This document shows positions 16,790-24,196 of a stretch of 28,753 bases of DNA, in pieces (position 1 is the stretch's first letter; the number at the start of each line of letters is the position of its first letter). The notes beneath the pieces were generated by a model. It searched no databases and had not been told where the DNA came from. It saw only the letters and a program-made list of their open reading frames with translations. Origin of the DNA: a virus; IMG/VR virus record IMGVR_UViG_3300007541_000135, positions 1 through 28,753 of that record; one strand, given 5' to 3'. The position numbers were made by a program, and so were the translations under genes.

Positions 16790-16795
16790 CTAGTG

Positions 16796-16907
16796 TAAGA
16801 GTTTGGTGAGGCTGTCACTTCACAATCATCAACTCCTTAAACTTAATGCCATTTTGTTTTATACTGATGACATAAACTCTTATAGAAAGCCCCGCAATGG
16901 GGCTTTC
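16796..16907 (+). ncRNA. Predicted small structured RNA with its own promoter and terminator
   Basis: About 112 bases between the CATAAATA box and a terminator. TAAGAGTTT at 16796-16804 pairs perfectly with AAACTCTTA at 16874-16882 (9 bp), closing a multi-branched core. Inside, GTGA/TCAC (about 16807-16819) and TCATCA with TGATGA (about 16826-16872) can form two smaller stems. The hairpin 16885-16907 then ends the RNA. It does not fit a tRNA: there is no T-arm or 7-bp acceptor pattern. There is no meaningful open frame. Compare the similar box-plus-terminator pair at 4038-4126. Confidence 0.55.
16885..16907 (+). terminator. Terminator-type hairpin after the small RNA
   Basis: GAAAGCCCC at 16885-16893 pairs with GGGGCTTTC at 16899-16907 (9 perfect pairs, loop GCAAT). 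The T-run is weak (CACCTTATT), but the stem itself ends in three A-T pairs. It may work on both strands. Another promoter box follows at 16917. Confidence 0.7.
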
Positions 16908-16924: not shown

Positions 16925-16975
16925 GTTCACCAAAAACACAAAAAACAACCACTTTAGGTTGACTTTTTAACAGAA

Positions 16976-17257
16976 ATGCTAAATAATAGTATAACAACAA
17001 AGGCATTGAAGTTGAAAGTAACACACCAACAAAGAATTGAAAACTGGGCACAACAGCAGAGGCAGTATCGCCAGGATGCTCTTGTGACACAGTGGCAACG
17101 CAATTTGGGCATTGGCGACTTCCAAAAAAAACTCACAGGCACGGAATGGGATAATTACAAACACTACAGAAAAACCCAACGACAAACACAAAGATTACAG
17201 GCACAATTAGCAAGGCTGGAACGCAAGGCACTATTCACAGACGATGCCAAGTCTTAA
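16976..17257 (+). CDS. Small Gln/Arg-rich helical protein, unknown
   Basis: A 93-residue basic protein dominated by Gln, Arg, Lys and Leu (for example QRIENWAQQQRQYRQDALVT, QTQRLQAQLARLERKALF), almost certainly helical and coiled-coil-forming. No clear ribosome site precedes the ATG, and a TAAATA box lies in the first codons, so an internal start near residue 10-12 is possible. It might bind DNA or RNA. No family recognised. It is followed by a long structured gap. Confidence 0.5.
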   Translation: MLNNSITTKALKLKVTHQQRIENWAQQQRQYRQDALVTQWQRNLGIGDFQKKLTGTEWDNYKHYRKTQRQTQRLQAQLARLERKALFTDDAKS

Positions 17258-17461
17258 TAAGTGGCGGTTAAAACTGGGGTTGTAATATGACGGCTAATGA
17301 CCCCCACGCTCCACGGTTGCTGAAAGGCTGTGGAACAAGCGGAGCCGCGAGATTTCTTGCTGTATTCAAGGCAACTTATACAGTGAAGTTGAGAGTTTCA
17401 ATACATTCGTCTCTTGTTAAATCTTCTTCAGTCGTGTGCGATATCCAAGACACACACTAGG

Positions 17462-17542
17462 CGGCTATGCGACTACACGCATTCTTAACAACAAACAAAC
17501 AATGTTTGGTATTTTTCTTGTTTGTGTGTAGTCACATAGCCG
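17462..17542 (+). repeat. Long inverted repeat (19-base arms) in the structured gap
   Basis: The arm 17462-17480 (CGGCTATGCGACTACACGC) pairs with 17524-17542 (GTGTGTAGTCACATAGCCG): 17 Watson-Crick pairs, one G-T and one mismatch. The 43-base loop is AT-rich and itself contains small repeats of AAACAA and TTGTTT. It is the strongest fold I see in the window and no coding frame crosses it. Confidence 0.8.
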
Positions 17543-17702
17543 TCGTATGACTTCAAATCCAAGTGCTAAAGACTTTCTCTTAAAACAAATAAGAAAAAAA
17601 GATGAAGTGGAGTTTGAGCGATAGCGAATGACTCCACGGAATAGACTTAACGCAAGTTAAGTCTTTGAATGCCCCTAAATTAACCACAGGTTAAATTATC
17701 TT

Positions 17703-17710
17703 GATAAATA
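17703..17710 (+). promoter_or_regulatory. T4-late-like promoter box GATAAATA before an HNH-like gene
   Basis: It lies 24 bases before the ATG at 17735 with an AAAGAGG ribosome site in between. Confidence 0.6.
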
Positions 17711-17734
17711 CTACTATAACAAAGAGGTATTGAT

Positions 17735-18157
17735 ATGTATACGGAATTGAGAAAACAACTACCGCGAACTTGGCGAATATGGCATCGTATGAATTGGCGT
17801 TGTGAGAGATACGACTTGTTCCCTTGTTATGAAGATGTGGTGATATGCGACAAATGGAATAGACAGGTATCAGGTGAAGATGGATTCATCAACTTTGTGA
17901 CTGACATAGGTGATTTGGACACCAATGAATTGTTCATATATAGACTGAACTGTTTCAAAGGATGGACACCCAAAAACACAGCAACCAAAACTTACAGAGA
18001 CTTTACCGCACACAATAGATGGCACAAGGATCCTGCCAACAAATACAAAATTATAGCCAAAGCAAATGGCATAAGAAACGCAACACTACGAACTAGATTG
18101 GAAAATGGATGGAGTCTCAAGAGAGCAATTACACAGCCAGTAAAACAGCGTGGCTAA
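17735..18157 (+). CDS. HNH-endonuclease-like protein (degenerate), C-terminal DNA-binding repeat
   Basis: A 140-residue protein resembling phage HNH/AP2-type homing nucleases: RIWHRMNWRCERY near the start, then VVICDKWN, GFINFVTDIG, and a Y-R-L-N-C-F-K-G-W-T-P-K-N segment that parallels the family's R-x-D-N-x-x-x-Y-x-P-x-N, followed by ATKTYRDFTAHNR. The expected catalytic His-Asn-His set is not complete. Residues 108-135 (IIAKANGIRNATLRTRLENG-WSLKRAITQP) look like the small helical DNA-binding repeat that follows such nucleases. It may be a nuclease or a DNA-binding relic. It has its own T4-late-like box, and a small gene overlaps its end. Confidence 0.55.
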   Translation: MYTELRKQLPRTWRIWHRMNWRCERYDLFPCYEDVVICDKWNRQVSGEDGFINFVTDIGDLDTNELFIYRLNCFKGWTPKNTATKTYRDFTAHNRWHKDPANKYKIIAKANGIRNATLRTRLENGWSLKRAITQPVKQRG

Positions 18158-18312: not shown

Positions 18313-18404
18313 CACCCAAACAACAGGAATGGCTTACAGTTTTGGGCATTCTAGCGGTGGTAATTGGCGTGGGTTTGGCACTACTTTTCACCCTTGTTAT
18401 ATAG
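18309..18404 (+). CDS. 31-residue membrane peptide (TTG start)
   Basis: Frame LTPKQQEWLTVLGILAVVIG and on through VGLALLFTLVI, then TAG: a short hydrophilic head and one membrane span of about 20 residues. It starts at TTG overlapping the previous TGA. Tiny single-span proteins of this kind are common among phage holins, pinholins and antiholins. There is no clear ribosome site, so it depends on translational coupling. Confidence 0.45.
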   Translation: MTPKQQEWLTVLGILAVVIGVGLALLFTLVI

Positions 18405-18471
18405 AGGTTTTACCACTGTTAAGGGGCAAGAATTTAACGCCATCTCATTCTCTAGATACCATAATCACCAC

Positions 18472-18479
18472 CCTAAATA
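18472..18479 (+). promoter_or_regulatory. Weak T4-late-like box CCTAAATA
   Basis: A second, weaker TAAATA lies 9 bases before the better box at 18488. Either may act; the first could be chance. Confidence 0.25.
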
Positions 18480-18487
18480 ACCTTAAG

Positions 18488-18495
18488 CATAAATA
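18488..18495 (+). promoter_or_regulatory. T4-late-like promoter box CATAAATA before a second HNH-like gene
   Basis: It lies 19 bases before the ATG at 18515, with AAAGGAG between. It would drive the overlapping genes to 19667. Confidence 0.6.
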
Positions 18496-18514
18496 TATAA
18501 AAGGAGTTATAGTA

Positions 18515-18856
18515 ATGACAAGACCCAAAGGCATACTGAATTATTCAAGCCAATTAGAAAGCACCCAAAGATTGTGTTATGCTCGCCACCGTGCCCAAGC
18601 CAAACACCGAGGGGAACCGTACACACTCACATTTGAAGATTTTAAGGCTATATGGGGTGAACAGTTTGAACAGCGTGGCAAGGCTGTTGAAGCCCTGTGT
18701 ATGAGCAGACGAGACAAGGCGTTGGGATGGACACCCACCAATACCATAATTGTCACAAGACAACAGCACCTTTCAAAGGCTGTTGAACTTATGAAAAAGC
18801 CTCGCAAAGGCGTGGATGAATGGGAGATACCAGATGAAATTAAACACAGACTATGA
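18515..18856 (+). CDS. Phage HNH-like/DNA-binding protein, second copy type
   Basis: A 113-residue protein. CYARHRAQAKHRGEPYTLTF and DFKAIW near the start, then MSRRDKALGWTPTNTIIVTR-QQHL, follow the same pattern as phage HNH-like proteins (Y-x-R-H-R-x-Q-A-x-x-R, then an S/T-R-x-D-x-x-x-x-W-x-x-x-N-x-x-x-x-T-R-x-x-H segment). The final conserved His is present. The ATG at 18515 has AAAGGAG 8 bases upstream; an earlier in-frame ATG at 18329 would read through promoter and gap sequence and is less likely. It shares the W-T-P-x-N-T segment with the HNH-like protein at 17735. The membrane peptide at 18834 overlaps its end. Confidence 0.6.
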   Translation: MTRPKGILNYSSQLESTQRLCYARHRAQAKHRGEPYTLTFEDFKAIWGEQFEQRGKAVEALCMSRRDKALGWTPTNTIIVTRQQHLSKAVELMKKPRKGVDEWEIPDEIKHRL

Positions 18857-19667: not shown

Positions 19668-19706
19668 GGCACAGCCTGTCTATCAAATCAGTTTGAAACC
19701 GTTTGT

Positions 19707-19904
19707 CTATTTTGGAGAAATTATTTGATAACCCTTGCCGTTTACCGTGATATTTTGGACGGAAACACCCCGTGTTGAAGTGCTCCATTGTGCGTCACTG
19801 GGAAGGGGCGTTATCCAATGGTATGTTCGTCCGTCGGTGCCAGGATATGAACTACAACCGCATAATACGGTGCTAATTAGCAGTGGTAAAACTAAAGATT
19901 TCAT
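19707..19904 (-). CDS. Small lipoprotein (signal peptide II), superinfection-exclusion or spanin candidate
   Basis: Reading the minus strand from 19904, the 65-residue product starts MKSLVLPLLISTVLCGCSSY: a short basic head, a hydrophobic core and a lipobox L-C-G-C with the modified Cys at residue 17, followed by Ser, which suggests outer-membrane sorting in a Gram-negative cell. The remaining 48 residues are Thr/Ser/Gly-rich and have no second span. It overlaps the upstream gene by 32 bases. Known phage lipoproteins of this size are outer spanins (Rz1-like) or superinfection-exclusion proteins such as T5 Llp; it lacks the high Pro content of Rz1. Confidence 0.7.
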   Translation of the reverse strand: MKSLVLPLLISTVLCGCSSYPGTDGRTYHWITPLPSDAQWSTSTRGVSVQNITVNGKGYQIISPK

Positions 19905-20316
19905 TGAATGTGTTTGGTTTGGGATCAAACTGTGAACGCTGTTCCATTTCAAATCCCCAACCATCCAAATTATCAAAGAACTTGTTCCATCGCTCAATTG
20001 GTGCTTGGGCAAAGTCTTTAGGCAGTCCGTCTCGCTTCTTGCCTTGTATTTCACCCGCCATATCCTCAACTATTTCCCAAAGTGTTCTATTCTTGCCTTG
20101 TGTCTTTGGAAAGCCTCGTAATGGTAGGTGAACTGCTTGACTTAAATCCTCATTGCTGTCAACCAATTCAACAAATGTTCTTATTCTTTCTTTCAACCAT
20201 TTGGCTTGTTTGTTACGCTCATCAACCGTTTGTTTGTAATAGGTGGTGGCAAATTTGTTACCTTCACGAGGTTTCATTTCGTGTGTTTTAATATATGGAA
20301 ATACTTTTTTTGTCAT
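19873..20316 (-). CDS. Minus-strand hypothetical protein, first gene of the lipoprotein unit
   Basis: A 147-residue protein on the minus strand. Start at 20316 with AAGGAG 9 bases before the ATG; the frame is open further upstream but that part overlaps the opposite-strand fibre gene. It is basic at the start (KKVFPYIKTHEMKPREGNKF) and helical through residues 28-60, with a central region rich in Lys/Gly (MAGEIQGKKRDGLPKDFA) and WNKFFDNLDGWGF. I do not recognise the family. With the lipoprotein gene it forms the only minus-strand unit in the window; its upstream region holds both a sigma-70-like and a T4-late-like promoter, so it is a good candidate for an early or host-facing function. Confidence 0.7.
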   Translation of the reverse strand: MTKKVFPYIKTHEMKPREGNKFATTYYKQTVDERNKQAKWLKERIRTFVELVDSNEDLSQAVHLPLRGFPKTQGKNRTLWEIVEDMAGEIQGKKRDGLPKDFAQAPIERWNKFFDNLDGWGFEMEQRSQFDPKPNTFNEIFSFTTAN

Positions 20317-21277: not shown

Positions 21278-24196
21278 ATGCCATTAGGAATAGCAAGACT
21301 TAACACATTATCGCGATACATTGTGGCGGCGGCACCGGTGGCACAGCGTACGGCTTCAACCATTACAGCATACGGTAGTGCCCAATTGGGTTCAACCAAC
21401 GCATTTGGCGGCACATCACTACAGGGGGCAAGTGCTACCAATGTTCAATCATATCTAAGAGCCAGTTCAGTTGGCACCTTTACTTCAGGGGACTTTACCA
21501 TCGAAGGTTGGTTTTATTGGAGTGACAATGCTGATACCCATATGATGACAATCACGGGTGCGAGCGGTGCCTTACCAGGCATCAGTCTATATAGAAACTA
21601 TACCAATTTAGTGGTGTATTCAAACGGTGCCAATGGTGGATGGAGCAGTTTAGGAACATTTGCTACCAATGTTAGCACCAACACTTGGCATCACATCTCA
21701 ATCTGTCGCAATAACACCCTTTACTACGCAAGTTTGGATGGAACAGTTACAAGTTTAGGCAGTTACACAGGCACAATATCATCAAGTGGTGATATTGATA
21801 TTGGCGGTTTAATCAGCAGTGGAGCAAACAATTACAACACGGGTTTTATGGATGAAATTCGTGTATCAAACACAGCAAGATATACCACAAACTTTACACC
21901 ACCAAGCAACTTTTTTGTAAACGATGCTAACACACTATTGCTAGTTCACTGTGATGGAACAGTGGGTGACACGGTGTTCATTGATGACAACGGTGCTAGA
22001 GCATCAATTGGTGTTGGAGCATTTGGTGATGCCGCAATATCAACCACACAATATAAAATTGGTTCCAGTTCATTTTATGTTGATGGGACCGGTGATTATA
22101 TCAAAACGGGTTCATATGTTATACCAGCATCAGGAACTTTTACTATAGAATTTTGGTATAGATCAGAAGGATTAGGCACGGTAAGAACACTATGCGGGCA
22201 GTATCTTGGTGGCACAGCAAATGAATGGACAATTTGGCAAAACACAAATGATACCATCAATATGTATTATCAAGGTGCCGGAGGACATATTCTTACAAGC
22301 ACAACTGGCATTACTGATTTGAATTGGCATCATATTGCTATCACAAGAAACGCGGCTAACAGATTTGATTTATGGATTGATGGTGTGTTGGAAGACAATG
22401 TCACCGAATCAGGCAACCTTTTAGAATATGATTTTATGATAGGAGCAAGGTTTAATGGCGGTGGGCCCAGCACAACAGAACACGCAAATGGATATTTTGA
22501 CGAAGTTCGCGTATCAAACACAGTAAGATACACAACAAATTTTACACCTTCAACAACAGCGTTTACAAATGATAGCAACACGCTTTTACTATTACACGCT
22601 GAACGGGTTAATGCTGACACAACCGTAATATTTGATGACAATGGTGGAACACTTCCAACTTACACACCACCGGTTCCAAATTACAGTTCAGACAGTTACA
22701 GCAATTATCTTGTATTGGCTATGCCATTTGATAGCACCAACGGAATCGTTGATGTCAGTGCTGATATTAGAGGTAGCGGAAGCAACTGTACGGTTACAGC
22801 AGGTGGAAACTCCAGTGTTACAAGCACATTGGTTAGATACGATGGACAGGGTTATGCTGGAGCATTACAAAATGTCAACACAAGTGCCACACCAAGTATC
22901 ACAGCCTCATTAACAACAGCAATTCCAAGTTCATCAAGCGGAACTTATGTTATTGAAGGATGGTTTAAGGCAAACAACGCAACCACAAACGGTAACTGGG
23001 CATTATCAAGTGCTGACAGTGGCGGTAGATGGTTGTTGGGTATAAACAACGGCACAATCTATACATCAGGAAATGAAAACAGAATAGGTATTGGTAGCAC
23101 GGATTGGCATCACATTGCCATTGTGTGCGATGGCTCCGGCAAACGACTTTATGTGGACGGTGCTTACAAAATGGCATTTACCACACCAAACACAGGCTTC
23201 TCAACACTACACATTGGACAGTTTAACGCTGGTGACAACGCTGACTTCCAAGGACACATACAGGATTTAAGAGTATATGTTGGAACCAACAAGGGTTACA
23301 CAGGCACCAATACAACCACAACAAACTTTGATTTACCGGGTCCAATTATTCAATACTTTGCTCAAGCAGGAGCAGTTCAACCATTTGGTTTAGGTGACAA
23401 TGCTGTTGATTTAGACGGAACGACTTACATCAAGGGTAACGCACAACCAAACACAGCACTATACAATACCGCAAGTATAAACACACACGGAGCATTCACA
23501 CTCAGTATGTGGGTTAAGGTATCAAGTTCAAGTGGTGGTTGGACTTCAGGAAGTGGCTTTGTTTGGGAAGACTTTATGGACGGAAAATTCCCTTCAAGAT
23601 GGCAGGTTGAATACAATCAAACCAACAAGATACAGTTTGAAGCATACAACTCAGCAGGTGCCAGAATTATTAGAACTGGTTACAACCAAGGAACTGGTGC
23701 GTCAGCCGGTGCCATCAGTGCTAACACTTGGTATTGGTTGGGAGCGTCATATGATAGTGCCGTGGGAAGTTCAGCAAGGGTGTACATTGCCCCATTGAAC
23801 GGTAGCCCAGTGGCACAGACTTACTACTCAAACGCAACATCGTCACAAACATTGATTACCAACTGGAACTATCCAACTGTAAACACTTACAAGGATAGAC
23901 TAGGTATTGGTGCTCGTTATGCGGGCAATGTTCAATCAGACTGTTGTGTTGCGGATATATGGTATAGCACTGAATACATTGATTTAAGTATTCTCGCAAA
24001 CAGACAGAAATTTATTACATCAAGCGGAACACCCGCTAACCTAGGAGCATATGGACAAACGCCAACAGGCAACTTACCATCATTGTTCTTGGCAGGTGAT
24101 GCTAGTAACTTCCACAAAAACCTTGGAACACTGGCAGTTCCATTAACAGTGGGCGGCGGCACAGTTACTGATTGTGCGAATGCTCCGGGAGACTAA
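21278..24196 (+). CDS. Large tail adhesin with four LamG/concanavalin-like modules
   Basis: The 972-residue protein carries repeated concanavalin/LamG-type beta-sandwich modules, which bind glycans. Three copies of the WHHI-A/S-I core strand lie near residues 135, 348 and 609; the first two modules also share DEIRVSNTARYTTNFTP (near 191) and DEVRVSNTVRYTTNFTP (near 407), so they are tandem duplicates. A fourth, divergent module spans about residues 700-960 (LSMWVKVSSSSGGW, WYWLGASYDSAVGS). The N-terminal 50 residues are the likely tail-docking segment. It follows the first fibre by 12 bases. It probably binds a host surface polysaccharide and may evolve by module duplication. Confidence 0.75.
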   Translation: MPLGIARLNTLSRYIVAAAPVAQRTASTITAYGSAQLGSTNAFGGTSLQGASATNVQSYLRASSVGTFTSGDFTIEGWFYWSDNADTHMMTITGASGALPGISLYRNYTNLVVYSNGANGGWSSLGTFATNVSTNTWHHISICRNNTLYYASLDGTVTSLGSYTGTISSSGDIDIGGLISSGANNYNTGFMDEIRVSNTARYTTNFTPPSNFFVNDANTLLLVHCDGTVGDTVFIDDNGARASIGVGAFGDAAISTTQYKIGSSSFYVDGTGDYIKTGSYVIPASGTFTIEFWYRSEGLGTVRTLCGQYLGGTANEWTIWQNTNDTINMYYQGAGGHILTSTTGITDLNWHHIAITRNAANRFDLWIDGVLEDNVTESGNLLEYDFMIGARFNGGGPSTTEHANGYFDEVRVSNTVRYTTNFTPSTTAFTNDSNTLLLLHAERVNADTTVIFDDNGGTLPTYTPPVPNYSSDSYSNYLVLAMPFDSTNGIVDVSADIRGSGSNCTVTAGGNSSVTSTLVRYDGQGYAGALQNVNTSATPSITASLTTAIPSSSSGTYVIEGWFKANNATTNGNWALSSADSGGRWLLGINNGTIYTSGNENRIGIGSTDWHHIAIVCDGSGKRLYVDGAYKMAFTTPNTGFSTLHIGQFNAGDNADFQGHIQDLRVYVGTNKGYTGTNTTTTNFDLPGPIIQYFAQAGAVQPFGLGDNAVDLDGTTYIKGNAQPNTALYNTASINTHGAFTLSMWVKVSSSSGGWTSGSGFVWEDFMDGKFPSRWQVEYNQTNKIQFEAYNSAGARIIRTGYNQGTGASAGAISANTWYWLGASYDSAVGSSARVYIAPLNGSPVAQTYYSNATSSQTLITNWNYPTVNTYKDRLGIGARYAGNVQSDCCVADIWYSTEYIDLSILANRQKFITSSGTPANLGAYGQTPTGNLPSLFLAGDASNFHKNLGTLAVPLTVGGGTVTDCANAPGD

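Follow-up and report, generated by a model that had tools for sequence, protein, structure and literature searches.

A probable structured RNA gene in the main gap of a viral genome, related to a pseudoknotted RNA family of marine phages

Introduction

Phages and prophages encode GOLLD and ROOL, two kinds of large noncoding RNA with elaborate, pseudoknotted folds and a poorly understood function (PMC12286853). The RNA family described in this study is likewise a large, elaborately folded and pseudoknotted phage noncoding RNA. However, its members measure approximately 400–500 nt, compared with 659 nt for a ROOL example and more than 800 nt for many GOLLD RNAs, and they are located beside homing endonuclease genes rather than beside tRNA islands. 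The GOLLD and ROOL models of Rfam gave no gathering-threshold match in the DNA analyzed here or in the family members.

The omega-RNA is found at the 3′ end of tnpB, and HEARO is found upstream of iscB. Our family shares with these systems a mobile cassette in which a nuclease gene is accompanied by a structured RNA. The family RNA is directly 3′ of a SegE gene, often with a common stop codon, which recalls omega-RNA and tnpB, and the RNA proposed below is upstream of an HNH gene, which recalls HEARO and iscB. However, in place of IscB or TnpB, the partner is a small protein of the SegE-type GIY-YIG or the HNH kind; no guide segment was identified in the family RNA, and the Rfam HEARO model did not match. 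As in group I introns, the RNA and a homing nuclease move together, but no gene is interrupted, the upstream open reading frames (ORFs) stopping at the RNA start, and Rfam contains no matching intron. The packaging RNA of phage phi29, which has 174 nt and is linked to packaging genes, is also a phage-encoded structured RNA; unlike it, the T4-like members of our family lie downstream of gp46 and SegE.

The window, by which we mean the whole 28,753-nt stretch of viral DNA that was analyzed (IMG/VR record IMGVR_UViG_3300007541_000135), comes from a small marine phage and has a long gap between two ORFs. We consider it probable, at roughly two chances in three, that this gap encodes, on the + strand, a structured noncoding RNA that is a divergent member of a pseudoknotted family of approximately 400–500 nt, one that is widespread among marine phages and absent from Rfam.

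Results

The gap and its fold

The 477-nt gap at 17258–17734 is real, as one ORF ends at 17257 and the next starts at 17735. The hairpin with 19-base arms that a first-pass annotation of the sequence had singled out is present (17462–17480/17524–17542) and has 17 Watson-Crick pairs, one G-U and one C-A. Additional inverted repeats were recovered at 17643–17651/17656–17664 (100%), at 17607–17613/17631–17637 and as hairpins near 17275–17342, together with the repeated CTCCACGG, whose copies at 17309 and 17632 are each one arm of a separate hairpin. In the fold prediction, none of 100 dinucleotide shuffles reaches the energy of the gap on either strand (z of −5.10 on the + strand and −5.50 on the − strand). 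The same annotation called the gap the only long gene-free region of a tightly packed genome. The first part is roughly right, with the qualification that 19668–20205 is also poorly coding on the + strand. The second part must be read for a record of 28,753 bp that is classed as linear and whose ends (1 and 28753) fall 4 bp apart within terL according to three relatives (L005, L006 and L008, GCCA-TCCT-CCAGT); the record therefore covers almost the whole of a circular genome of approximately 28,757 bp.

An RNA family in marine phages

Relatives of the window were collected with the major capsid protein as the query, and more loci were collected with the HNH gene. In L116, a structured stretch that precedes the HNH gene contains the 18-mer GTTCCGTCTGACTGAAAC, as does a stretch at the same place in G011 (L112). 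This 18-mer has more than 120 matches in IMG/VR with neighborhoods that align over approximately 400–500 nt. Among GTDB genomes, five contigs contain the 18-mer; the family RNA is present in two of them, and its context is missing from three. The two RNA-bearing contigs (L249 and L251) come from a single Candidatus Neomarinimicrobiota MAG (RS350) and are probably phage contigs that were binned with it.

The family RNA has no match in Rfam, and one family RNA (a typed-in copy as read in L137) found nothing among 50,697 isolate phage records or among plasmids at blastn sensitivity. Rfam searches at gathering and permissive thresholds gave only chance-level matches, and the DNA of the gap showed no similarity to isolate phages. 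A tRNA/tmRNA search found none, and a tmRNA was rejected. Our search for papers on such an RNA, in which subscription journals and preprints were thinly covered, returned none. Because no family in the public RNA catalogue matches, the family may, provisionally, be an undescribed class of viral RNA.

A search for more RNAs of the window type with the pattern CCGTCNNATGACTNNAAATC returned the same species only, plus six unrelated stretches. Other large structured regions take the same position before HNH genes in L114, L115 and L123, and L244 has a motif common to them. L114 (G013) matches R2, the covariance model of the 5′ half of the family (E of 3.6e-6), and L123 does not match it. The occurrence of related RNAs before HNH genes in window-type phages counts in favor of the RNA reading of the gap.

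Covariation and a pseudoknot

An unguided covariation scan combined with RNAalifold provided a helix set for the family. In alignment A6, columns 203–207 pair with columns 350–354 and this helix crosses helix 11, which makes it a pseudoknot. The formal pairing test covered 36 sequences and 82 base pairs. The proportion of paired cells was 93.1%, against 31–40% when the partners were slid and 82% in shuffles, and the covariation score was 0.314, against 0.131 (sd 0.005) shuffled and 0.04–0.07 slid. Changes on both sides were observed in 43 of the 82 pairs, including all four pairs of the pseudoknot helix 8. The slid-partner control favors the structure, which was derived from related sequences, and the shuffle control ignores relatedness; the effect size far exceeds both. 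The family is therefore under selection at the RNA level and contains a pseudoknot. The stem conservation in relatives on which the first-pass annotation had made its idea depend was found at the level of the family.

The family also carries two direct repeats, 7-mers after ACTC and after ATCT, which are identical in 111 of 114 members. Copy 1 differs from ACATGAA in 30 members, and copy 2 equals copy 1 in 28 of these; shuffled repeat copies match at most 76 times.

The window as a probable divergent member

The following features of the gap are proposed.

17258–17694, + strand: probable structured RNA gene, a divergent member with approximate outer limits (fold z of −5.1; family motifs)
17275–17283, + strand: candidate 5′ strand of the closing helix, ACTGGGGTT, pairing with AATCCAAGT at 17556–17564 (analogy to family helix 1)
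17429–17433, + strand: 5′ strand of helix H10, CAGTC, with its partner at 17549–17553 (sequence; family helices 13–14)
17434–17455, + strand: hairpin GTGTG...CACAC (H11) with repeat copy 1 in the loop (sequence; fold)
17443–17449, + strand: direct repeat copy 1, ATCCAAG (sequence; family repeat position)
17462–17542, + strand: hairpin with 19-bp arms, read as an enlarged H12 (family GAYGGAACC...GGTTCCGTC), ending in CCGTC as in the family
17540–17559, + strand: 3′ core CCGTC-GTA-TGACT-TCA-AATC (family core motif)
17557–17563, + strand: direct repeat copy 2, ATCCAAG (sequence; position equivalent to family copy 2)
17607–17637, + strand: tail hairpin GTGGAGT-TTGAGC-GATA-GCGAATG-ACTCCAC (family tail motif; match of model R3)
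17643–17664, + strand: terminal 9-bp hairpin with a GCAA loop in a terminator-like position (the equivalent family hairpin, helix 18, covaries)

The covariance models R1 (3′ half) and R2 had no significant match in the window, even when unfiltered, and the family 5′ domain AAGGTT-GCGG-GCCAG...CCGC-TGTGG was not found there by R2; consequently, we call the window a divergent and not a typical member. Model R3, whose structure was specified by hand, matched part of the tail hairpin (17574–17633, 12.8 bits, E of 0.2 over the window) as its second-best hit, the top match lying elsewhere and looking spurious. Because the covariance models miss the window, the case rests on two sequence descriptors. 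The core descriptor, CCGTC-N0-4-TGACT-N2-7-AATC, has 105 family copies and otherwise fits only the window and one chance match; it was relaxed after the window had been looked at, and the core numbers therefore overstate the evidence somewhat. The tail descriptor, TTTGAG[CT]G-NN(N)-A-N-CGA, was derived jointly from the consensus of the family and from the window; it has 91 copies located +69 to +123 relative to the family core, and elsewhere in 4.67 Mb of loci, on both strands, it occurs in the window only. In the window, the tail-hairpin motif TTTGAGCG-NN-AGCGA is at 17613, 73 nt from the core, and the family spacing is approximately 70–120 nt downstream. Among 20,000 shuffles of the gap, the core appeared in one, the tail in eight and both in none.

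When the gap is anchored by these motifs, CAGTC/GACTT, GTGTG/CACAC, the ATCCAAG repeats and the long hairpin fall at H10, H11, the repeats and H12, and the hairpin with 19-base arms is therefore read as an enlarged H12. The ATCCAAG copies are in the right positions before and after H12, although a lone 7-nt repeat is not significant in 477 nt. The window type consists of two near-identical records only, and the measured covariation is that of the family. The structured RNA that the first-pass annotation had placed among its guesses gains support from the covariation in homologues and from the family motifs in the window.

A nuclease cassette around the family RNA

A SegE-type GIY-YIG endonuclease gene (Pfam SegE_GIY-YIG, E of 1e-35) is upstream of the RNA on the same strand in 85 of the 91 loci with enough sequence, with a 2-nt overlap between its stop codon and the RNA start in 44 cases. 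In the remaining loci, SegE is downstream in two, an HNH gene is downstream in one, and no nuclease was found in three (L138, L112 and L153, the last of which ends 32 nt past the core). Only in L138 is the RNA just upstream of a gene that resembles, by eye, a small terminase subunit; in the window, terL is approximately 10 kb from the gap. A scan for gp46 relatives showed the order gp46, SegE, RNA in most loci with enough sequence, and T4-like phages with their own replication genes have the same RNA with gp46 upstream. Contig ends cluster in the SegE-RNA stretch, with 53 of 80 loci (L256–L335) ending within 3 kb downstream of gp46.

In pairs such as L237/L207, identity is approximately 0.6–0.9 over gp46, 0.87–0.99 over SegE and the RNA, and approximately 0 beyond the RNA. 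The distances between RNAs correlate with those of SegE (rho of 0.51) more than with those of gp46 (0.39). These data show that the RNA and the nuclease gene are exchanged between phages as a cassette. The coupling is not obligatory, since Melnitz has a SegE-like gene without the RNA, and L112 and L138 have the RNA without an adjacent nuclease.

Genes and elements around the gap in the window

Four features flank the gap.

16795–16845, + strand: conserved hairpin containing GGCTGTCACTT (16810), where the structural-gene operon ends, upstream of the RNA locus
16959–16987, + strand: sigma70-like promoter TTGACT-17-AATAAT, a candidate for the 93-aa ORF and the RNA (10/12 matches)
16976–17257, + strand: 93-aa ORF whose stop codon abuts the RNA (open reading frame)
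17735–18157, + strand: HNH-type endonuclease-like gene, 140 aa, with a degenerate catalytic region (phrog_3377, E of 3.8e-10; phrog_1065, E of 5.8e-11; alignment)

The exact GGCTGTCACTT motif occurs in 19 of 335 loci, from window-type phages, and is present in G003, G004 and G013; the hairpin at 16810 is possibly a second conserved element. Sigma70-like sites in the promoter region are no more numerous than expected by chance, and relatives have a stronger sigma70-like promoter at the equivalent place. The 93-aa ORF had no match in PHROG or Pfam. The contigs of two relatives (L005 and L006) stop at the place equivalent to the gap.

Discussion

It is unlikely, although this is the strongest of the alternatives, that the gap is a decayed remnant in which the 3′ core and the tail hairpin were kept but the 5′ domain was lost, along with the function of the RNA. 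The failure of R2 to match the window agrees with decay, as does the degenerate catalytic stretch of the downstream HNH protein. However, the whole gap still folds with a z of about −5, and its sole difference from the near-identical relative is a 3-nt deletion in the H12 loop (in L002), as expected under constraint. We regard as more doubtful the idea that the gap acts as a cis-regulatory leader for the HNH gene, specific to this lineage and unrelated to the family. The gap is directly upstream of the HNH start in the same orientation, and the window-type phages L123 and L115 have a different structured region before the HNH gene, both of which favor a leader; the presence in the window of two family-specific 3′ motifs at the family spacing speaks against it. 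Moreover, the gene downstream of the family RNA is variable and is often encoded on the other strand, so a leader function does not hold for the family as a whole.

The first-pass annotation also suggested a replication origin or a packaging site, that is, an element acting as DNA, and these suggestions fared poorly. The gap is the main gene-free region and is rich in inverted repeats, and no replication gene was recognized among the window proteins scanned, which would suit an origin. Nevertheless, selection in the family acts on RNA pairing, including the pseudoknot, and the RNA also occurs downstream of gp46 in T4-like phages that have replication genes of their own. GC skew, which the annotation proposed as a check, has no switch at the gap, and only short gaps follow the same tail genes in the relatives G004, G008 and G009, an absence that also counts against the main reading. 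We therefore judge an origin or packaging site to be very improbable. Least credible of all is the idea that the gap holds an intron of group I or II, or some intron-like ribozyme, together with a homing endonuclease gene. The size of the structured RNA and its place beside homing endonuclease genes invite the comparison, but the intron models of Rfam have no match even at an E of 10, and the RNA begins where an intact gene has its stop codon, so no split gene is seen.

If the gap is indeed a divergent member of the RNA family, its RNA would be transcribed with the upstream ORF and would end at the terminal hairpin. In the folded RNA, the two identical repeat strands may bind one common trans partner, a phage-specific RNA or protein, because a search of the family RNA for a third strand that would pair with these repeats found none in a conserved position. 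The RNA would travel within a homing-endonuclease cassette, and in the window the HNH gene would hold the position of the nuclease on the other side. It is conceivable, but in our opinion a long shot, that the RNA is a working partner of the adjacent nucleases in RNA-assisted or RNA-guided homing, with SegE-type GIY-YIG or HNH proteins using a common pseudoknotted RNA and the co-varying repeats serving as the recognition element.

A strongly conserved large RNA that is present in more than 100 ocean-phage contigs and has no Rfam family would add a new class to the noncoding RNAs of viruses. The tight placement of this RNA behind the gene of a homing endonuclease and their joint exchange would make it an RNA carried by a nuclease cassette and not an intron, and two repeats that change in step offer a specific and testable handle on the partner of the RNA.

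Other observations

The closest named records to the window are Phage DSL-LC06 (L253), a circular 29.8-kb assembly from lake water, and the pelagiphages HTVC202P, 111P, 026P and 112P. The annotated genes of DSL-LC06 include no recognized replication gene. A gene-poor stretch of 755 nt (573–1327), to which R1 and R2 gave no match, separates the tail genes of this phage from the annotated gene that follows. For the zinc-protein family, conservation was too low for an alignment search. The stretch at 18329–18856 of the window has a weak likeness to the phage ‘decoy of host sigma70’ family (phrog_4592, E of 9e-4), and a 972-aa protein encoded at 21278–24196 contains repeated Laminin G/ConA-like lectin domains.
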